Origin: Nitrososphaerales archaeon
GTDB taxonomy: Archaea > Thermoproteota > Nitrososphaeria > Nitrososphaerales > Nitrososphaeraceae
Direction of reading: 5' to 3'
Length of the DNA stretch: 39,135 bases
NCBI GenBank assembly: GCA_029237525.1
Contig: JARBAU010000060.1
Location: forward strand, 1 to 39,135
The notes under the pieces were generated by a model that was not told the origin of the DNA, ran no database searches, and saw only the letters and a list, made by a program, of their open reading frames with translations. Shown piece by piece: positions 6,615-16,376 of this stretch (the first letter of the stretch is position 1; every line of letters starts with the position of its first letter). Both the position numbers and the translations under genes were made by a program.

Positions 6615-7784
6615 CTACATAGTTGGAACGTTGTTTGGTACTTCCTCTAATGCTGGCAATATTGATGTAGAGGAGTTCTTCTCAATAATTTCGTCAATAG
6701 TCTGATTCATAGCAGCTTCCGCAATATCACTCGAATGCTCAGCAGTTCGTCTTATATCCTCTAATATAAGCCTGATATTGATATTGACAAGTGGATCGCG
6801 AATAGTCTTTTTCTCTTCTTCTTTTTCTAATAATACAATTATGTCATTTTCCAATACGCGCAAACTTTTTGCTCTATCTACGGTCTTATCTGCAAGTACA
6901 TAATCTCTTCGCAAAAATGCCTCAACTGCATCGTTTAAAGCAGTTAGTGATATCTCACTCATTTTTTCTATTTTACGAAACATTTCTATAGGGATCTTTT
7001 CTTTGATCTTAATACAGCTATCAGCAATTCCATATGCATGATCGGCTATTCTCTCGATACTCTTCACTGTGACCCTGTAGCTTAAACAATCTGATGGCTT
7101 CTTAAGCCCTATTTCACGAAGTATTCGCTCGTTTTGAGTTGCTATTACCAGATTTCTGAGAATATAAAGACTGAACCTGTCAACCTCATCGTCTGATTTG
7201 ATGACCCCTTGTGCTATTTCATAATTCAATTCAGCAAGTGAAGAAAGCGCATCTCTATGCATAGAAGAAGCTATCAGAAACATCCTTCTAACCGCCGTGT
7301 TAACAGATAGCTCTGGGATACTGATTAAAATTTGAATTGTGATAATGTCCGAGGCATCAGCAATTATTTCAGTTCCAACCAGATTTCTACGAATAACTTC
7401 CCGAATCGCATCCCTCTGAATTGGGTTGATTCTTCCAATTTTAGATTTTAAATGAATGACGCTATAGCCGGCTAGATAAATTGACACAACTTTGCGTTTC
7501 AGAGATGCAGAATCTTCATTCTGAAGTACTAGGGCAGTAACTTCATCCGAAGACCCGCCCGAGGCGGACGTCCTTCCTCTCCTGGGCTCAGGTAAAATAG
7601 ACAAAGAATTATTTGCCTCACGTATAATTACTACTGGATCTCCAGCTTTCAGATGCATTTCAGTTAGCCATTTTTTTGGCAGCGATAGAATGTAAGTTGA
7701 TCTACCCGTAAATTGTATTTTACGTACTTCATTGTTTTTAGAGCCAGGATCGTAAGAGCTCAATAAGATAGGTAAGGTGGGCAC
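6615..7784 (-). CDS. AbrB-PhoU fusion, candidate phosphate regulator
   Basis: A 389-residue protein with a GTG start. Residues about 18-67 form an AbrB/SpoVT-like swapped-hairpin DNA-binding domain (RKIQFTGRSTYILSLPKKWL, then AGDPVVIIRE). Two PhoU-type helical bundles follow, with the family's E/D-rich helix ends at about 240-257 (SIERIADHAYGIADS) and 342-358 (EDIRRTAEHSSDIAEA). PhoU bundles bind metal clusters and sense the state of the Pst transporter in bacteria. In archaea the fusion with AbrB is thought to serve as a transcription regulator. The pst operon lies 3.6 kb away on the other strand, with its own stand-alone PhoU. A perfect palindrome lies 26 bases upstream of the start and resembles one before pstS, so autoregulation is plausible. 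Confidence 0.88.
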   Translation of the reverse strand: MPTLPILLSSYDPGSKNNEVRKIQFTGRSTYILSLPKKWLTEMHLKAGDPVVIIREANNSLSILPEPRRGRTSASGGSSDEVTALVLQNEDSASLKRKVVSIYLAGYSVIHLKSKIGRINPIQRDAIREVIRRNLVGTEIIADASDIITIQILISIPELSVNTAVRRMFLIASSMHRDALSSLAELNYEIAQGVIKSDDEVDRFSLYILRNLVIATQNERILREIGLKKPSDCLSYRVTVKSIERIADHAYGIADSCIKIKEKIPIEMFRKIEKMSEISLTALNDAVEAFLRRDYVLADKTVDRAKSLRVLENDIIVLLEKEEEKKTIRDPLVNINIRLILEDIRRTAEHSSDIAEAAMNQTIDEIIEKNSSTSILPALEEVPNNVPTM

Positions 7785-7809
7785 AAATAAACATGTTATG
7801 CCAATCTTT

Positions 7810-7825
7810 CATATAGTTCTATATG
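7810..7825 (-). promoter_or_regulatory. Palindrome at the AbrB-PhoU gene start, candidate operator
   Basis: CATATAG-TT-CTATATG is a perfect 7-2-7 inverted repeat. It starts 26 bases upstream of the GTG of the minus-strand AbrB-PhoU gene. A TATA-like stretch (minus strand CTATATAC, near 7838-7846) lies about 24 bases further upstream, so the palindrome would cover the transcription start, a typical repressor position. The core ATAG-NN-CTAT is shared with the palindrome before pstS. Confidence 0.5.
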
Positions 7826-7842
7826 TCATAGACTGAGGTATA

Positions 7843-7859
7843 TAGATCATTTAGATCTA
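7843..7859. promoter_or_regulatory. Second palindrome upstream of AbrB-PhoU
   Basis: TAGATC-ATTTA-GATCTA is a perfect 6-5-6 inverted repeat that overlaps the predicted TATA region of the AbrB-PhoU gene. The same arms (TAGATC...GATCTA) form the core of the longer palindrome at 17918-17944 before an exported-protein gene. It is a possible second operator; short AT-rich palindromes also arise by chance. Confidence 0.3.
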
Positions 7860-8156
7860 ATGGCTTTGGATGTAATCTAGATATACATTCGGACGCAAAA
7901 TTCAAAATTGAGCAAATCTTGGACGGAATATGGAGTGTACTAGTTTGAATTTAACAACATCGCTTTCAAGAATTTTATTCTGCCTCACCTGCCTACTAAC
8001 AGAATTTTTCCTTAGTAATTCAAAAGTAATCATTTGATCTTGTCCTCTAAATAGTTCGTGCCTTACTATATATACTATTTAGATGAATCTTTCGGTTTCC
8101 GGATAAATGCCTCCACGCAGGTTACAGACTTTAAAAATCAAGTATTAGGTACAGCC

Positions 8157-8262
8157 GGAGTGTGAACGGGATAGCCAAGCCGTTCCGAAAAAAAATCGGC
8201 CCATCGCTGAAGGTTTGAAACACTGACAAAAGGATTGCAAGTAGACATGCACTGCAATTAGA
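8157..8262 (+). ncRNA. Candidate small structured RNA
   Basis: There is no ORF here, but stem-forming segments are dense: GAACGG/CCGTTC (8164-8169 with 8080+100-8185, loop of 10), CCGA/TCGG around a run of A (8185-8199, an alternative to the first) and ATTGCA/TGCAAT (8234-8258). A good archaeal box A-like sequence, CTTTAAAAAT at about 8129-8138, lies about 25 bases upstream of a predicted start near 8157-8160. I could not match it to SRP, RNase P, 5S, C/D or H/ACA RNAs. On the minus strand the T8 run (8188-8195) could end the tRNA transcript instead, so part of this could simply be a tRNA trailer. Confidence 0.3.
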
Positions 8263-8267
8263 TTAAG

Positions 8268-8342
8268 TGCGAAGTGCGGGATTTGAACCCGCGATCCCGA
8301 GCTTGGGAAGCTCGTACCTTAACCAGGCTGGGCTAACTTCGC
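8268..8342 (-). tRNA. tRNA-Gly (anticodon CCC)
   Basis: The minus strand folds as a full tRNA. The acceptor stem is GCGAAGT paired with ACTTCGC, with A as discriminator base. The anticodon stem is CGAGC/GCTCG around the loop TTCCCAA, giving anticodon CCC, which reads the Gly codon GGG. The T-arm is GCGGG-TTCAAAT-CCCGC, and the D-loop contains the GG pair. No intron and no encoded CCA, as expected for most archaea. A TATA-like stretch (minus TTTATATAAT, near 8396-8405) and a nearer AT-rich box lie upstream. Confidence 0.95.
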
Positions 8343-8688
8343 GATATTCATTCTAAAAGCAAAAGCCAAAAATAATAATCTTTGCGAAAACAATCATTAT
8401 ATAAAATATTTGATTTATGCTGTCTAATTATATCATTCCTATAAGCAAATGAGACAGTATTAACCATTTGTTCTTAATAATATGAATGAATTCTTATCTA
8501 TTTTGCAAGATCAAGTCAGACCTCGGTACGATCCTTGCTTATGATTATCACGTTTCTCTTAAGTATCGAAATTTGAGATGATCTTCTATTTTTATTGAAA
8601 AATAAATTCTATTACAAGGGATTTGCCAATCGGCAGTATTGCTAGATACAGTAGTTATTTATGCTCCATTTATCTGATAATTAATTAA
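8343..8688. other. Divergent promoter region of tRNA-Gly and the HEPN-like gene
   Basis: AT-rich spacer with several TATA-like stretches (for example 8396-8405) that could serve the tRNA on the minus strand. Near 8481 a short plus-strand frame reads MNEFLSILQDQVRPRYDPCL and then stops. It is too short to call. Confidence 0.35.
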
Positions 8689-9252
8689 TTGTCGATCTCA
8701 AATAGGGGTAGCAAAAATACCAATGAACCACTAGCAAAGATTGTTGAATATGACGTTAATATCCGAGGTGCATTTTTTGTTAATCTGGTTTCAATCGATG
8801 GAATAATTAAAGAAATTATATCACACCATTTCTGTTCTGATGGGGGTAGCGAAGAAAAGCGCATGCAATTCATATCACTAATCTTGAATGAAAGAACTTT
8901 GACCACTCCTGAAACTATTCACATGCTTGAAGAAATTCTAAAGAATAATTATCCAGATTTAAATCAGGAATACTCAAAGTTTGTTAATGAACTGAAAGAG
9001 ATCGTAGAATTTGGAAAATGGCTTTCTCATTCGAATCTTGATATATCGAAGGGATATATTGCAAAATTGGATTTTACAAATGAAGATAGGATTCAATTAA
9101 TATCATGTGATAGCACAGGGCATACAAATTATAAAGAGATCACTAAAGCCGAAATGGATGAGAAACTTGTGGATTGTTTAGATGTCTATCTTGCTCTGGA
9201 GGAAATCCGGGCTGAGGTCAGGGATCGAGTCTTAACAGGCCGCAGAAACTAG
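8689..9252 (+). CDS. HEPN-like helical protein, degenerate active site
   Basis: A 187-residue protein with a TTG start. The N-terminal two thirds look all-helical (about residues 25-120: IRGAFFVNLVSIDGIIKEII, FISLILNERTL, then ELKEIVEFGKWLSHSNLDIS). This resembles proteins in which a long helical pair ends in the HEPN ribonuclease motif R-N-x-x-x-H before Ser. Here the aligned segment FGKWLSHS keeps His114 but has Gly for the Arg and Lys for the Asn, so nuclease activity is doubtful. The C-terminal third (SKGYIAKLDFTNEDRIQLIS and on) could be a small beta domain. It lies about 350 bases from tRNA-Gly, with no antitoxin-like partner gene. The family assignment comes from pattern only. Confidence 0.6.
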   Translation: MSISNRGSKNTNEPLAKIVEYDVNIRGAFFVNLVSIDGIIKEIISHHFCSDGGSEEKRMQFISLILNERTLTTPETIHMLEEILKNNYPDLNQEYSKFVNELKEIVEFGKWLSHSNLDISKGYIAKLDFTNEDRIQLISCDSTGHTNYKEITKAEMDEKLVDCLDVYLALEEIRAEVRDRVLTGRRN

Positions 9253-9636
9253 GCATAATTTTCGAAAGGCAGGTTTTGCCAGCAAAATCCATCTTCCTTG
9301 TGCGGATACCCATTATACTTTTACATTAATTATGACATTTTTTAGATTCTGACGTAAGTTCTAGGTCTTCTTATCCCTAGAAGGAAGATTGAAGTATTAT
9401 GATTAACAAATTAACCTTTGTCGTAAGGGAATTCTGTTTGCATTGTTATATTGCGCAAACGGTTGAGTAATTGAGATGGGACAAAGACTAATAATGTTCT
9501 AAAGTAAAATTAGATGGACTATCAATTAAATTCGTTTTAAAATTTCAAGTACTATAACAAATTTAGAATGTACATGTGATTCGAAATCGTACAGATTCTC
9601 ACCAATGATCGAGATCGTGATGAATCTGTTATAATA
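9253..9636. other. Intergenic upstream of TFB
   Basis: A short imperfect hairpin directly after the HEPN-like gene (GGTTTTGC...GCAAAATCC, about 9272-9290) may help termination. The rest is AT-rich with no gene seen, leading to the TFB promoter. Confidence 0.35.
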
Positions 9637-9645
9637 CTTATATAA
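9637..9645 (+). promoter_or_regulatory. TATA box of the TFB gene
   Basis: CTTATATAA is close to the archaeal box A consensus. It lies 36-44 bases before the ATG at 9682, which predicts a transcript start near 9667 and a leader of about 15 bases. Confidence 0.55.
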
Positions 9646-9681
9646 CTGAAATATCCATAATATTATTACTTATTCTCAAAA

Positions 9682-10590
9682 ATGATGAAAAATTCAACGA
9701 TATGTAAGGTGTGTAATAAAGACGGTAAAACCATAACCGATCCCGAGTCTGGAGAGATCATTTGTAGCAATTGTGGAATGGTTATTTTAGAGAATGCTCA
9801 GGAAAGTCGAGCCGAATGGCGCGCATTTAATGTTGACGAGGCAAAGACAAGAAGCAGGACAGGTATGCCCATCTCTCTGGCAAGGCATGATATGGGACTT
9901 GCCACCATAATTGGACGGGCAGATAAGGACGCAAGCGGCCGTGGTTTAGAATCTTCAGTTCGTTCAACCATGGATAGATTGCGGGCTTGGGACTTTAGAA
10001 CTCAAGCTTATTCTCCATCAGATCGAAATTTACGTCATGCATTTAGTGTGCTTGAAAGGGTTAAAGACAAACTTGCATTGTCAAACGCAATAGTTGAAAA
10101 GACTGCTTATATTTATAGGAAGGCTCAAGAGCGAGGACTTGTACGTGGAAGAACTATACCTTCAGTGCTTGCCGCGTCAGTTTATATAGCCTGCAGGGAA
10201 ATGGGGACATCGCGGACACTAAATGATATTGCGGTACTAAACAATATCAAACGTAAAGAGTTAGCAAGAACTACGAGACTGTTAATCTTGGAGTTGGATA
10301 TTCGAGTACCCATGATAGATCCGATGAAGTGTATTGCAAAAGTAGCTAATAGGACAAGGCTTAGTGAGAAAACAAAGAGACACGCTATGAATATTATGAG
10401 TCATGTCACAAAAAGCGGCATATCCGCTGGCAAAGATCCGATGGGATTGGCGGGTTCCATTCTATATTTGTCTTCAAAGAATTTTGGTGAGGATATTACG
10501 CAGATGGACATCGCTGAAGCAGCGGGCGTAACCGAAGTAACGATACGAAACAGATTCAAGGATCTCAAAAGCAGACTGGACCTAAATTAG
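9682..10590 (+). CDS. tfb: Transcription initiation factor TFB
   Basis: A 302-residue archaeal TFIIB homologue that bridges the TBP-TATA complex and RNA polymerase. An N-terminal zinc ribbon (C8-x2-C11 ... C28-x2-C31) is followed by the B-reader/linker (AEWRAFNVDEAKTRSRTGMP) and two cyclin-fold repeats (about 105-195 and 205-298). The second ends in a helix-turn-helix (DIAEAAGVTEVTIRNRFKDL) that would read the BRE. Two ATG codons stand in tandem at the start, and the second is equally possible. Length is normal for the family. Archaea of this group often have several TFBs, so this may be one paralogue of several. The gene is monocistronic with its own TATA box, and converges on the zinc-ribbon gene. 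Confidence 0.96.
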   Translation: MMKNSTICKVCNKDGKTITDPESGEIICSNCGMVILENAQESRAEWRAFNVDEAKTRSRTGMPISLARHDMGLATIIGRADKDASGRGLESSVRSTMDRLRAWDFRTQAYSPSDRNLRHAFSVLERVKDKLALSNAIVEKTAYIYRKAQERGLVRGRTIPSVLAASVYIACREMGTSRTLNDIAVLNNIKRKELARTTRLLILELDIRVPMIDPMKCIAKVANRTRLSEKTKRHAMNIMSHVTKSGISAGKDPMGLAGSILYLSSKNFGEDITQMDIAEAAGVTEVTIRNRFKDLKSRLDLN

Positions 10591-10705
10591 GCCACGGAAT
10601 TACTAGATTGTATGTATTGTCTGTAAACCTTATAATTTTCACGTACGTAAGATCTGGATAATAGAACATAATTATGTACCAATATATCACATAATATTAT
10701 TTCTA

Positions 10706-11266
10706 TCATTGTCTGTGTCCGCATTTACTGCAAAACTTTGCGTTTATTGGAATCTGGCAGTCACACACATTACAGATTTTATAATTTTGCAAGATTGTAT
10801 TCACTGTCCTAGTAGATTCTTTAGCATGAATGCCGCTACGTTGTGGTTTGGGTAGCGTGTATTGATCTTCTTTAGGCTCATTTTCCTGACTTGATTTACT
10901 CTGTCCTGCATTGCCACCAATATCTATGAACCCTCCAATTCCAAATCCTGAACTGGGAGTAGAGCCGGAGGTAGAATCAGGCATCATTTCTCCGCCTGTG
11001 GAATCTTTAATAGATGTTCCTTTTTGAATAGATGTCTTCAATTCTAAGAGAACTCTAATCATAAGAAAATTCGAGGCCGAAAATGAAATGATGTATGTCA
11101 AAAAATTAGTTATGACTTCTTTTTCATTCATGTTTTCATTCTTATATCGTTCAAATAATTCCGAAAAATTTTTGAATAAATTCATGGTATCGATATTCTG
11201 GCTTTTCAGTTTCTCAGACAATGCTCCGAGAACATCTACACCGAATGACAATTCAATTACTAACAA
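10706..11266 (-). CDS. Protein with C-terminal zinc ribbon
   Basis: A 186-residue protein with a TTG start. The first about 80 residues are predicted helical (ALSEKLKSQNIDTMNLFKNF, then a more hydrophobic NFLTYIISFSASNFLMIRVL). A low-complexity Ser/Gly/Thr linker follows (about 95-135, GSTPSSGFGIGGFIDIGG), and then a C-terminal zinc ribbon CNVCDCQIPINAKFCSKCGH, of the kind found in many archaeal proteins of unknown role. The hydrophobic stretch may pack in a helix bundle rather than cross a membrane. It is divergent from pstS, sharing a 127-base promoter region with it, and convergent with TFB. Function unknown; the shared promoter region hints at co-regulation with phosphate uptake but does not show it. 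Confidence 0.7.
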   Translation of the reverse strand: MLVIELSFGVDVLGALSEKLKSQNIDTMNLFKNFSELFERYKNENMNEKEVITNFLTYIISFSASNFLMIRVLLELKTSIQKGTSIKDSTGGEMMPDSTSGSTPSSGFGIGGFIDIGGNAGQSKSSQENEPKEDQYTLPKPQRSGIHAKESTRTVNTILQNYKICNVCDCQIPINAKFCSKCGHRQ

Positions 11267-11357
11267 GATACGAACATATTAATTCATTGAAAATCTGTGA
11301 ATTAAATTTGAAATTAGACGAATGTGTAGGATGAGGTGAAATTACAATAAATACATA

Positions 11358-11380
11358 GTTCTACATAGGTCTATGTGAAC
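11358..11380 (+). promoter_or_regulatory. Palindrome at the pstS start, candidate Pho operator
   Basis: GTTCTACATAG-GT-CTATGTGAAC is an inverted repeat with a single extra T in the left arm; its inner part ACATAG-GT-CTATGT is perfect. It lies 13 bases before the pstS ATG. An AT-rich TATA-like stretch (AATAAATAC, 11346-11353) is just upstream, so the palindrome would cover the transcription start. The core ATAG-NN-CTAT and the spacing from the TATA-like box match the palindrome at 7810-7825. Confidence 0.5.
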
Positions 11381-11393
11381 TCTATCCAGAACC

Positions 11394-12554
11394 ATGATAA
11401 CTAACTCTATCATATCAAAAATAATGTCAAAATTCATCAAGAACTCTCTTGTAATTGTAGTTATGACTTCATTGCTTCTTACCGGAGTCATGACAGTGAG
11501 TATGTCTCAACGGTCGTTTGCTCAGCTTCTTCCAAAGCAGATGCAGACACCAGGTCAGACAAGTATTAATGGTGCAGGCGCAACCTTTCCGTTCCCATTA
11601 ATTGATACATGGAGGGTCGAGTATCAGAAAGTAAAACCAGATGTGAATATTAATTATCAATCAATAGGTAGTGGTGGAGGAGTCAAACAATTTACTGCTA
11701 AAACGGTAGATTTTGGCGCTTCAGACGCCCCACTAACGGCTGCAGAAAGAGCAAAGGCCACTAATGCGGTGCATATACCGGAAACAATTGGTTCAGTAGT
11801 AGCAGCCTATAATATTCCAGGTATTCCTGACAAAGGACTCAAGCTCACTGGTCCAGTCCTTGCAGATATCTTTTCAGGAAAAATAAAGAAGTGGAATGAT
11901 CCACAAATCCAATCCTTAAATCCAGATAAGAAACTTCCAGATGCTAACATTGTAACAGTCCATAGATCAGATGGATCCGGCACAACTTTTGTGTGGACAA
12001 GCTTTCTATCCAAGTCAAGCCCCCAATGGAATCAAACTATTGGAGCCTCCAAATCCGTTCAATGGCCTTCAGGTGTAGGTGCTCCTGGTAATGAAGGTGT
12101 GGCAAATGCAATAAAGGGCTCACCTAACACGATCGGGTATATTGAACTGAACTATGCCCTAAATACTAAAACACCTTATGCATTTATTAAAAACAGCGCA
12201 GGGAAGTTTGTTGAACCAACCCTGGATACAGTGAAGCAAGCAGCAACCGATGTGGCATCAAAAGGTTTGCCAAAGGGAGATGCATCGTGGGAAAAAGTAA
12301 CATTACTTAATGATAAGGCAAGCGGAGCTTACCCAATTGCAAGCTTCACTTATTTGCTTATTCCAAAAGACCTGGGCAAGAGTCCCAACATGAACGAAGC
12401 AAAAGCAAAGGCATTAGTTGACTTCATAAAGTGGGCAATCACTGACGGTCAGAATTTTTCGTCAAAACTAGGATATGTTCCTCTTCCAGACCAAGTTGTC
12501 AAAGCTGATCAGGAATCACTCAAATCTCTAACCTTCAATGGAAAACCTATCTGA
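11394..12554 (+). CDS. pstS: Phosphate ABC transporter substrate-binding protein
   Basis: A 386-residue periplasmic-type phosphate-binding protein. An N-terminal signal/anchor (about 14-43, LVIVVMTSLLLTGVMTVS) ends in SFAQ. There is no lipobox Cys, so it is probably released or held by an uncleaved helix. The phosphate-binding motifs of the family are present: GAGATFPFPL, IGSGGG, DFGASDAPL and RSDGSGTTFVW. The lobes and length are typical. Start: the ATG at 11394 gives a long basic N-terminus; the ATG at 11424 (MSKFIKNS) is a good alternative. It is the first gene of pstSCAB-phoU, has a candidate operator at its promoter and ends in its own hairpin/T-run, which fits production in excess over the permeases. 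Confidence 0.95.
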   Translation: MITNSIISKIMSKFIKNSLVIVVMTSLLLTGVMTVSMSQRSFAQLLPKQMQTPGQTSINGAGATFPFPLIDTWRVEYQKVKPDVNINYQSIGSGGGVKQFTAKTVDFGASDAPLTAAERAKATNAVHIPETIGSVVAAYNIPGIPDKGLKLTGPVLADIFSGKIKKWNDPQIQSLNPDKKLPDANIVTVHRSDGSGTTFVWTSFLSKSSPQWNQTIGASKSVQWPSGVGAPGNEGVANAIKGSPNTIGYIELNYALNTKTPYAFIKNSAGKFVEPTLDTVKQAATDVASKGLPKGDASWEKVTLLNDKASGAYPIASFTYLLIPKDLGKSPNMNEAKAKALVDFIKWAITDGQNFSSKLGYVPLPDQVVKADQESLKSLTFNGKPI

Positions 12555-12600: not shown

Positions 12601-12687
12601 TACTATATAGACTATTTTGATCTATATTTTGACTATATGTAAATCTAATATAATGATCGATTCTTCAAAAACAATAGACAGTTATTT

Positions 12688-13704
12688 ATGACAAGTGGTT
12701 CTGTTCATATTAATACAGATATCAAGAAGAAAGTCTCGTCTTTTCTTGTAGGCAGTAATAAAAACAGAAGATTTGGTGACAAGTTATTTCATGGTCTAGT
12801 CTTCGGGACTGCTGCATACACTTTATTCATTATAGTTATTGTAGTGTTCTCGGTGGGTGCAGGATCTATAAAGATTTTTTCTCAAGAAGGATTTATTGGT
12901 TTTGTGACGGGTACTGCATGGAATGCAGTCGAAGGCCGGGAGTCCTATGGTGCGCTTCCATACATTATTGGAACTTTGATGAGTTCTGGCATCGCATTAC
13001 TAATTGGCGTACCTATGAGTATGGGTGTAGCATATTTTCTGGTAGAGATGGCCCCTTCCAGAGTAAGTGGACCCTTATCTTTTATAATAGAATTACTAGC
13101 AGCTGTTCCTAGTATAATCTATGGGCTGTGGGCCCTCTTTGTATTCAGGTTCTTGATAAAGGATTGGATAGAAACGCCTTTGTACAATACCTTGGGTTCA
13201 TATATTCCATTTTTTAATCAAGCACCGTTTGGTCTTGATGTATTTACCGCTGGAATAGTTCTTGCAATAATGATAATACCTATTGTTTCATCGATTAGTA
13301 GAGATGTCATGAAGGCTGTTCCAGATTCTCAAAGAGAAGCAGCATACAGTCTTGGAGCAACAAGATGGGAAACATCTAGGATGGCCGTCTTTCCGTATGG
13401 CAAGTCAGGCCTGTTAGGAGCTTCTATTTTAGGTTTTGGCAGAGCAGTAGGTGAAACTATGCTTGTCACACTTATAATTGGAAATGCAATAGGGCCTTCT
13501 GCGATTCCTACTACATTATTTTCCCAGAGTCAAACACTGTCAAGCTTGATCGCTAATGAATTTAACGAAGCATCATCCGATTTACAGCTATCTGCACTAA
13601 TTGGTCTTGGGGCGGTCTTGCTCATTATAACCATGATTATCAATATTGGTGCGAGAATTATGGTTTCAAGAATGGTGAAGGTAAGTCCAGGAGGCAGGGA
13701 GTAG
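12688..13704 (+). CDS. pstC: Phosphate ABC transporter permease PstC
   Basis: A 338-residue inner-membrane permease with six predicted helices (first at about 37-61, LVFGTAAYTLFIIVIVVFS). The coupling (EAA) loop REAAYSLGATRWETSRMAVF lies before the last helices; it docks on the PstB ATPase. Pairs with PstA to form the phosphate channel. The long soluble N-terminus (about 35 residues) and the large loop around residues 150-180 are within the family's range. The 133-base gap from pstS holds the hairpin, and then an AT-rich stretch with repeated CTATAT words (12602-12640) that may be an internal promoter. The pstA start follows four bases after the stop, so the two are translated as a pair. Confidence 0.94.
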   Translation: MTSGSVHINTDIKKKVSSFLVGSNKNRRFGDKLFHGLVFGTAAYTLFIIVIVVFSVGAGSIKIFSQEGFIGFVTGTAWNAVEGRESYGALPYIIGTLMSSGIALLIGVPMSMGVAYFLVEMAPSRVSGPLSFIIELLAAVPSIIYGLWALFVFRFLIKDWIETPLYNTLGSYIPFFNQAPFGLDVFTAGIVLAIMIIPIVSSISRDVMKAVPDSQREAAYSLGATRWETSRMAVFPYGKSGLLGASILGFGRAVGETMLVTLIIGNAIGPSAIPTTLFSQSQTLSSLIANEFNEASSDLQLSALIGLGAVLLIITMIINIGARIMVSRMVKVSPGGRE

Positions 13705-13708
13705 TAGC

Positions 13709-14704
13709 TTGAGTAGTAGTAATAATCCCTCATCTAGGAAGGAGAAGTCGTCAGGAGAAAGACCAAGCAAAGCTGGTAACAATTTCAGACAAACATTTCA
13801 GGAGATATCAATAAAACATGCCAGTCGACGGAGAATCACTAACAAGATTGTAAGTATCATTGCGATTGTTTTTGTAATTGGAGCCATAATTCCCTTGGCA
13901 AGTATTCTTTTCGAAGTGATTAAAAATGGTGTAGCTGTATTAAGTGTTCAGTTTCTCACCCAACCGCCAGGTGCTATAGGTTCCGATGCTGGGGGGATTG
14001 GCCCAGCGATTCAGGGGACGCTAATTACTGTTGGATTGGCATCCTTGATAGGAGCTCCTATTGGAGTACTTTCTGGAGTCTACCTATCAGAATTTGCTAC
14101 AACCAGCAGCGTTAAGGGCCCAAAGCAAAGAGCGATCAGCTTCTTTGCTAACACTATCAGACTATTCAATGATGTACTTACTGGTTTACCATCGATAGTG
14201 ATTGGTATAGTAGGATATGTGGCAATAGTTCTGGCACTAAACTCTTTCTCTGTATGGGCAGGTGCTTTTGCACTATCCATAATAATGATACCCATCGTAT
14301 CAAGAGTATCAGAAGAGACGTTAAAGCTAGTGCCTAATTCATTACGTGAAGCTGGGTATTCCCTAGGAATTTCAAAAACAAAGATTACGCTTTTCATTGT
14401 CCTAAAAAATGCTAAAGATGGAGTTCTGACCGGTGTTATCTTGGCTATATCGAGAATTGCAGGGGAAACCGCGCCTCTTATAATGACAATACTTGGCACG
14501 AGCCTCTTCTTTACCAGTCTTACCGGTCCAGTCGATGCACTGCCCTTGAGAATATGGAGATTGGCTTCACAGCCATATGAATCTGCTCATGGTTTTGGAT
14601 GGGGCGCAGCGTTAGTACTCATTCTCATCATTCTTGCCCTAAGTGCAAGCATAAGGTTGATTGCACGTGGAAAAGGCATTAGAGTAAGAACTGAGACTAT
14701 ATAG
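13709..14704 (+). CDS. pstA: Phosphate ABC transporter permease PstA
   Basis: A 331-residue permease with a polar Ser-rich N-terminus (about 1-45) and six predicted helices. The EAA loop is REAGYSLGISKTKITLFIVL, and the following SRIAGETAPL is typical of PstA. Start: a TTG four bases after the pstC stop, preceded by the purine-rich AGGCAGGGAG at 13689-13701, which can act as a ribosome binding site. The first 13 bases (TTGAGTAGTAGTA) are repeated exactly at the likely pstB start, so the two proteins begin almost alike. Acts with PstC and PstB in high-affinity phosphate import. Confidence 0.94.
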   Translation: MSSSNNPSSRKEKSSGERPSKAGNNFRQTFQEISIKHASRRRITNKIVSIIAIVFVIGAIIPLASILFEVIKNGVAVLSVQFLTQPPGAIGSDAGGIGPAIQGTLITVGLASLIGAPIGVLSGVYLSEFATTSSVKGPKQRAISFFANTIRLFNDVLTGLPSIVIGIVGYVAIVLALNSFSVWAGAFALSIIMIPIVSRVSEETLKLVPNSLREAGYSLGISKTKITLFIVLKNAKDGVLTGVILAISRIAGETAPLIMTILGTSLFFTSLTGPVDALPLRIWRLASQPYESAHGFGWGAALVLILIILALSASIRLIARGKGIRVRTETI

Positions 14705-14747: not shown

Positions 14748-14801
14748 ATGAAATATGTTGGGAATGCATAACTACGCCTTGAGATTATAACAGGTTTGCG
14801 A

Positions 14802-15653
14802 TTGAGTAGTAGTAGCAACGAGGAAGTTACACGTTATTCCCCTCAAACTAGTGATAATGACAAGAGAGTAGTTGTTGCACCTGCGACCACGCAAACTAAA
14901 ATCAAACTTTCAATTCAGAATGTTAATGCATGGTTTGGAAAAAAGCATGCCGTAAAAGGCGTTAGTTTGGAAGTCAAGGAAAATAGCGTGACAGCTTTTA
15001 TTGGACCTTCTGGGTGTGGTAAAACTACCCTTCTTCGTTGCATAAATCGTATGCATGAAATGACTCCGAATGCAAAAGCAGAAGGTAGAGTAATTCTTGA
15101 CGGTGTTGATGTTTATGATAAATCATCTGATCCTGCTATGGTAAAACGACGCATAGGCATGGTTTTCCAAAAACCAAATCCATTTCCAACCATGAGTATT
15201 CACGATAATGTAGCCGCAGGATTGAAACTTAATGGCATTAGGGATAAGAAGTTGATTAATGAAGTCGTAGAGCAAAGCCTCAAAGGAGCAGCACTTTGGG
15301 ATGAAGTAAGGAACGACCTTCATATGCCAGGAATGGGTTTGTCAGGCGGACAACAACAGCGCCTTTGCCTCGCTAGAGCACTAGCGATGCAGCCTGAGAT
15401 ACTATTAATGGATGAACCAACATCTGCACTAGATCCTATTGCGTCCTCTAAGATTGAAGATCTTGTCCAACAACTGAAAGAACATTTAACCATTATCATT
15501 GTAACTCACAATATGCAACAAGCAGCGAGAGTATCGGAACAAACTGCTTTTATGTATCTTGGCGAATTAATTGAATATAATCCTACCAGAGATATATTTA
15601 AGAATCCACAGAAGGAATTGACTGAAAAGTACATCTCTGGAAGATTTGGATAA
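14802..15653 (+). CDS. pstB: Phosphate ABC transporter ATPase PstB
   Basis: ATPase of the phosphate importer, with all motifs intact: Walker [10 protein letters not shown], the PstB-typical Q-loop [12 protein letters not shown], signature LSGGQQQR, Walker [13 protein letters not shown] and switch His in [11 protein letters not shown] choose the TTG at 14802 (MSSSSNEEV) because its first 13 bases repeat the pstA start. A TTG two codons earlier (14796) is in frame. A polar tail of about 35 residues precedes the core, longer than in bacterial PstB. The gap of about 100 bases from pstA holds an inverted repeat. phoU follows after 63 bases. Confidence 0.95.
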
Positions 15654-15716: not shown

Positions 15717-16376
15717 ATGTTGTATTTTATGCCTAGGCTGCTAGATCTTGGCTTAGACCGTATTCGCAATATAGTTACGGATATGGCAAAATTATCGGAA
15801 GGTTCAGTTTTTTCTGCCTTGGAAGCATATGAAAGCAACAACATTGCTAAAAAGCACATATTTGAACTGTCAGAAAAACTCAGAACCCTGCAAGATGAAG
15901 TGACTGACCTTGCAGTAGAATTGATAGCACGGTATCAACCAGTAGCTACTGATCTAAGGTTTATCAAATCTTGTATGGAAATAGCATATGGATATTCTAG
16001 ATTTGGACGTTACTCCTATGACATCGTGGATGTGCTTGAAACTTTGACTCCGTTAACGGACTGCGATAAGAATGCTGTATCTGAAATGGCAATGACTGTG
16101 AGAAAAATGATTCTATTGAGTGTGAATGCATTAGAATCAAGAGATAAAATGGCTGCACAGGATCTTTATCAGATGGATGACACCGTTGATACTCTTTATA
16201 GAAAATATTTGAGGGAACTAGTTTCGAATTTGACAAAGGATTCTTCAGGCAAACCACGATGCTATATCTCGAATCTACTTATTCTAAGATATTTAGAAAG
16301 AATAGCAGATCACGCTTGTTATGTAGGGGATTCTGTTTATTATATTATAACTGGTGCTTCCAGTCCAAGGCGATAG
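15717..16376 (+). CDS. phoU: Phosphate signalling protein PhoU
   Basis: A 219-residue stand-alone PhoU made of two three-helix bundles. The first ends in VELIARYQPVATDLRFIKSC, and the second has LLILRYLERIADHACYVGDS; the repeated E/D-x-x-x-D pattern binds metals. In bacteria PhoU restrains Pst and links it to the phosphate signal. Here no PhoR/PhoB pair is nearby, so a role in controlling transporter activity or phosphate toxicity is likely. The start may be 15717 or the ATG at 15729 (MPRLLDLGL), which fits the family better. It is the last gene of the pst cluster. A second, AbrB-linked PhoU lies at 6615-7784. Confidence 0.93.
   Translation: MLYFMPRLLDLGLDRIRNIVTDMAKLSEGSVFSALEAYESNNIAKKHIFELSEKLRTLQDEVTDLAVELIARYQPVATDLRFIKSCMEIAYGYSRFGRYSYDIVDVLETLTPLTDCDKNAVSEMAMTVRKMILLSVNALESRDKMAAQDLYQMDDTVDTLYRKYLRELVSNLTKDSSGKPRCYISNLLILRYLERIADHACYVGDSVYYIITGASSPRR

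Follow-up and report, generated by a model that had tools for sequence, protein, structure and literature searches.

We analysed a 39,135-nucleotide stretch of a Nitrososphaerales archaeon (contig JARBAU010000060.1), hereafter called the window, which is one of the 400 contigs making up a 3.7 Mb draft genome and whose named relatives are Nitrososphaeraceae. The window contains an AbrB-PhoU gene on the minus strand (6615-7763) and, on the plus strand, pstS (11424-12554), pstC (12688-13704, TIGR02138), pstB (14796-15653, recognised from its open reading frame and ABC-ATPase sequence) and a phoU gene without a DNA-binding domain (15717-16376, PF01895 only). A sequence-only reading had described matching palindromes over the starts of the AbrB-PhoU gene and pstS. 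Both palindromes are present. The one in the AbrB-PhoU promoter is CATATAGTTCTATATG at 7810-7825 (CATATAG-TT-CTATATG, 7+2+7 with perfect arms), which reads as two half-sites, CATATAG-AA-CTATATG, on the minus strand of the gene. The one in the pstS promoter is ACATAGGTCTATGT at 11363-11376 on the plus strand (ACATAG-GT-CTATGT, 6+2+6). The longer GTTC...GAAC repeat said to enclose the latter is one base out of register, the left arm AGTTC-T-ACATAG being 1 base longer than the right arm CTATGT-GAACT.

Taken alone, the motif as first stated is weak, and what needs explaining is its position at two phosphate genes. The core ATAG-NN-CTAT has 2 copies in the window against a mean of 1.34 in shuffled sequences, 37% of which contained at least 2, so that only position and conservation, and not the core itself, go beyond chance. 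Near-matches to the palindrome are common across the own genome, and none of the best of them (on contigs C226, C142, C202, C213, C298, C375 and others) was found at a recognisable phosphate gene. With its core at chance level and its near-matches away from phosphate genes, the short palindrome was rejected as a predictor of a regulon.

Start codons and TATA-like boxes were predicted throughout from conservation and from the distance to the start. In the AbrB-PhoU promoter, a conserved TATA-like box, TTTATTT (7785-7791, minus strand), lies about 19 bp downstream of the palindrome. A third half-site, CTATATAC (7838-7845, minus strand), is found 29 bp from the last half-site; it aligns with an exact CTATATAG half-site in the sister genome G002 and most relatives, and it is probably what had been taken as a TATA box. 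G002 has TATATAGATCTATATG at the place of the palindrome. The open-reading-frame list puts the start of this gene at GTG 7784, but TTG 7763, about 28 nt past the TATA-like box, is the likely start and is preferred because TTGAG[CT] is conserved in several genera.

The pstS promoter has a comparable layout. A block of 47 bp (11348-11394, plus strand) is identical to G002, with no alignment between the two genomes further upstream, and holds the 10-bp repeats TACATAGTTC TACATAGGTC followed by TATGTGAAC, which span the palindrome. About 20 bp downstream of the palindrome is a TATA-like box, GATAACTAA (11396-11404, plus strand), at the position occupied by ATTAATAA in relatives. ATG 11394 is probably wrong as the start of pstS because the codon is AAG in G002; the likely start is ATG 11424, about 28 nt past the TATA-like box. 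The sequence-only reading had set the palindromes 20-25 bp downstream of a TATA box and over the gene starts, and neither placement agrees with these alignments: the conserved TATA-like boxes are 19-20 bp downstream of both palindromes, the starts predicted there are not conserved and the real ones are likely further downstream. Half-sites so placed are upstream elements and not operators over the start.

Exact copies of CTATATAG occur in the window upstream of pstC, upstream of pstB and inside the radA coding sequence (24776). The pstC copy (12603-12610) opens a half-site array that runs to CTATATG at 12633-12639 (12603-12639, plus strand); the pstC upstream region of G041 has the same arrangement, and G095 has CTATATAG upstream of pstC. 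The pstB copy (14697-14704, plus strand) lies some 100 bp before pstB, where it overlaps the stop codon of pstA.

To map the regulon, patterns were searched in genomes, many of them metagenome assemblies, and in sequence stretches extracted from them. Aligning upstream regions in relatives, as the sequence-only reading had proposed, did uncover a conserved element, larger than the palindrome. In Nitrososphaeraceae (f1), upstream regions of 49 AbrB-PhoU and 50 pstS genes were subjected to an expectation-maximisation motif search. The AbrB-PhoU consensus was ...CTATATGA...CATAA-nn-TGTTTATT, half-sites followed by a TATA-like box, and the pstS consensus was ...CTATGTGAATTATATnG...ATTAATAA, again half-sites followed by a conserved TATA-like box. 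The element is thus a group of CTATATAG-centred half-sites with helical spacing, and the TATA-like box follows about 20 bp downstream. CTATATAG was present in 32 of the 49 AbrB-PhoU promoters (1.7 expected), and upstream of the second AbrB-PhoU paralogue in Nitrososphaeraceae it was found in 20/20, mostly with TATATAG about 20 bp later. A search of 61 family genomes with the pattern CTATATAGN{8,26}CTATRTGA gave 14 matches, of which 11 were directly upstream of AbrB-PhoU, 1 was directly upstream of pstC and 2 were elsewhere; the reversed control gave 19 matches. Half-sites in this family showed a strong 9-10 bp periodicity, which is only suggestive because related sequences and one tandem array inflate it. 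That array, in the AbrB-PhoU promoter L004 of G008, is a 9-bp tandem repeat, CTATATAGT CTATATCGT CTATATAGT ATATATAGT ATATATAGT ATATATAGT, an expanded form of the half-site array.

An independent clade, f2, which we take to be Nitrosopumilaceae, gave a sharper result. There CTATATAG is rare: genomes of 1.5-1.7 Mb have 6-10 copies each, fewer than the composition control. It was found upstream of 11/13 pst-linked AbrB-PhoU genes (paralogue Y), 11/11 genes of the second AbrB-PhoU (paralogue X) and 17/19 pstS genes. Among all 8-mers in the 43 f2 promoters of AbrB-PhoU (X, Y) and pstS, CTATATAG was the most frequent (39/43). With the pattern CTATATAGN{16,46}TAATCTATG, 81 genomes yielded 12 matches, all directly upstream of pstS, and the gap in these 12 was always 25 bp, though 16-46 was permitted. 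Other pstS gaps were 15 (3 genomes), 36 (1) and 28 (1, with a diverged second half). The gap therefore shifts mostly by about one helical turn, as expected for a protein on one face of the DNA. CTATATAG was also present upstream of AbrB-PhoU in the deep families f3, f6, f7 and f9 of the class.

The remaining CTATATAG sites were annotated in four f2 genomes. Among them are sites at a DUF47-Pit gene pair, at pstC and at the gene of an exported protein some 543 residues long; a few sites lie inside genes. The DUF47-Pit operon consists of a DUF47 gene (PF01865) followed by a PHO4-family Pit transporter gene (PF01384). CTATATAG was found upstream of 5/5 Pit-type DUF47 genes in f2 and of 0/15 other, non-Pit DUF47 genes. 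Paralogue Z, the third AbrB-PhoU, with about 28% identity, likewise had it upstream of none of 21 genes. Given these negative paralogue controls and its rarity in the genomes, CTATATAG was rejected as a general TATA box. The claim of a phosphate operator stands in part: relatives retain the element, and it clusters at phosphate genes, but neither the short palindrome as its unit nor a simple operator is supported. Conservation, gene specificity, spacing with phasing, and gene linkage are established directly.

Several side observations were made. The Z paralogue (L064:5048-6061, on contig C134 of the own genome; upstream regions in L306-L325) has its own conserved promoter block, which in Nitrososphaeraceae reads approximately ATATAAAAATAATGTTTAATTAGTTTAAATG and in Nitrosopumilaceae is a related AT-rich sequence; this is possibly a different autoregulatory site. 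The exported protein of about 543 residues, which has no Pfam match (L135:1498-3129, L167:1927-3558, L241:1683-3311), has CTATATAG upstream and sits in or near Nitrosopumilaceae phosphate loci, adjoining DUF47-pit in G103, a genome without pst. It is a candidate phosphate-related surface protein. About 310 bp from ilvE (L227, L233, L237, L242), a conserved arrangement GATCTATATAGATCAG...CTCTAAATA...CGCGTGTTTAGGGTAACGCCGG recurs in several f2 genomes; its appearance suggests the beginning of an unannotated stable RNA together with its promoter, and an Rfam search of this conserved CTATATAG block gave no match.

The AbrB-PhoU protein itself is the favoured candidate for binding these sites. It has an N-terminal AbrB/MazE-type domain (PF04014, E 4e-8, residues 24-68 of the GTG-start ORF) with invariant R, Q, TG, SLPK, W and GD positions, and C-terminal PhoU domains (PF01895 twice). 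In an AlphaFold2 model of the window protein, the PhoU fold matches 1t72 and other solved PhoU structures. The AbrB part is modelled at low confidence (residues 1-25 below 50), perhaps due to a swapped-dimer fold. The model also places a confident alpha/beta domain between AbrB and PhoU, at residues ~74-145 of the TTG-start protein and without Pfam annotation, which is a possible sensory or dimerisation domain.

This candidate is favoured because it joins an AbrB DNA-binding domain and PhoU domains in one chain, because three clades of the paralogue tree have the site at the AbrB-PhoU genes themselves, and because the gene is divergent from pstS in f4, f5 and f9, or adjacent to pstS. Further reasons are that the site is absent (0/21) at the paralogue with the most diverged AbrB domain, and that the pst-linked paralogue is lost together with pst: three AbrB-PhoU matches were found in 32/36 f2 genomes with pstS versus 1/15 without (Fisher p 3e-8, ancestry uncorrected). 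A replacement of PhoR/PhoB by AbrB-PhoU, as had been suggested, fits the finding that an OmpR/PhoB-type output domain (PF00486) was detected in 0/11 genomes by a search that was positive in 10/14 control genomes.

Weighing all of this, we lean slightly towards the palindromes belonging to a promoter signal that AbrB-PhoU would bind and that marks a phosphate regulon conserved across the class Nitrososphaeria. A number of observations weigh against it. The two palindromes of the window are variants and not exact CTATATAG; exact CTATATAG occurs in only 13 of the 50 f1 pstS promoters (0.7 expected) and in 0/6 f1 Pit-type promoters, which have variants at most; and some f2 sites lie at genes without a visible phosphate link. 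Counts across promoters are not independent, because the promoters are related by descent. The site of the second paralogue falls on the TATA position. Finally, pst and the site persist in G095, where paralogue Y, the pst-linked one, is missing; this agrees with the model only on condition that the second paralogue acts there through the same site, and the pst-linked paralogue was accordingly rejected as a requirement.

That the palindromes and CTATATAG are merely AT-rich core-promoter (TATA) sequence with a chance likeness would suit the lack of enrichment of the ATAG-NN-CTAT core in the window, and the many near-matches in the genome, since AT-rich DNA easily forms such palindromes. We regard this as very improbable. 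CTATATAG falls below the composition control and yet is specific to phosphate promoters, matches to the two-part patterns are nearly confined to pst and AbrB-PhoU, and pstS has a separate TATA-like box conserved downstream. With the paralogue controls negative it is refuted as a general account, and may hold for single copies. The phosphate promoter signal may also be real and be bound by another transcription factor, with AbrB-PhoU merely one of its targets, as the persistence of the site in G095 would allow. This too is improbable, to a lesser degree, because G095 does carry the second paralogue, which has an AbrB domain of the same kind and a site of its own, the site accompanies AbrB-PhoU genes in deep families and the neighbouring tfb is not conserved with pst. 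This tfb gene, for transcription factor B, adjoins pstS in the window (9682-10590) and in the distant genome G091 (L170:4599-5528). It was rejected as a dedicated factor, because the other pst loci that were searched lack it beside pstS.

Which protein binds, with what sign it regulates and which signal it follows are inferred, the sign being the weakest of these steps. With the same element and protein, AbrB-PhoU could be a repressor in phosphate-rich cells that leaves the DNA under starvation. The coincidence of the second-paralogue site with the TATA position speaks for this, as does the general knowledge that bacterial PhoU is a negative element. Activation of the transporter genes appears likelier than repression. 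An activator suits the pst promoters better because their half-sites are upstream of the TATA-like box and helically phased, and activation under phosphate limitation would be in line with the haloarchaeal pho-boxes of Halobacterium salinarum pst1/pst2, reported in the cited passage as essential for up-regulation (Furtwangler 2010, cited in PMC6560208). We consider repression at the transporter genes rather unlikely on these grounds.

In the activation model, AbrB-PhoU dimers would bind CTATATAG-like half-sites through the N-terminal AbrB domain. At pstS, pstC and DUF47-Pit, the protein just upstream of the TATA-like box would aid TBP/TFB when phosphate is scarce, and the PhoU part would sense phosphate or the state of the transporter. 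At the AbrB-PhoU genes the same sites would give autoregulation; binding at the TATA position of the second paralogue would block initiation, permitting autorepression. More tentatively, we propose a class-wide one-protein switch, whose PhoU part would read the transporter or phosphate directly and whose own AbrB domain would bind phased CTATATAG arrays serving its own gene as well as the interchangeable Pst and Pit transporters. Paralogue X, as the general form, and the pst-linked Y would share sites. This wider scheme is plausible, and somewhat doubtful as a whole.

In the bacterial PhoR-PhoB system, the Pho box half-sites upstream of pst promoters are spaced by about one helical turn. The element described here resembles that regulon in its repeated, helically spaced half-sites and in including transporter and regulator; it differs in its archaeal TATA promoters and in its candidate for the DNA-binding part, a PhoU-fused AbrB domain. 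The closest known system is that of the haloarchaeal pho-box and PhoU regulators (Halobacterium; Haloferax volcanii PhoU2, HVO_2374), and DNA-binding PhoU regulators adjoining pst are predicted in Haloferax in the passage cited (PMC6267482). PhoU-family proteins as transcription regulators and a conserved cis element in pst promoters are common to both, so the kind of system is already known. Here, in a phylum other than that of the haloarchaea, the element is CTATATAG-centred and phased and extends to the Pit operon and regulator genes.

An AbrB-type DNA-binding domain is also shared with TK2245 of Thermococcus kodakarensis (SpoVT/AbrB with a PhoU domain), which is listed among chromosome-associated proteins (PMC7325993), and with Sso7c4 of Sulfolobus, a DNA-binding AbrB-fold dimer (PMC5222340); the cited passages give no phosphate regulon or recognition site for either. 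In Ca. Nitrosopelagicus brevis, a single locus next to one of three phoU genes carries either Pst or Pit; this locus has the highest population divergence, and phosphate transport genes distinguish ocean populations (PMC9239043). The three phoU genes and the Pst/Pit locus match the three paralogues and the Pst and Pit targets found here, and the cited passages of that account contain no cis element or DNA-binding role. No earlier description of the element was found in the literature searched, which covered subscription papers in part, and this is no proof of novelty.

Ammonia-oxidising archaea are abundant in soils and oceans. A named cis element with a candidate regulator makes phosphate regulation in the class directly testable, and in uncultured genomes CTATATAG can serve as a sequence marker of genes that respond to phosphate. 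An element upstream of both Pst and Pit would let either exchanged cassette share one control.

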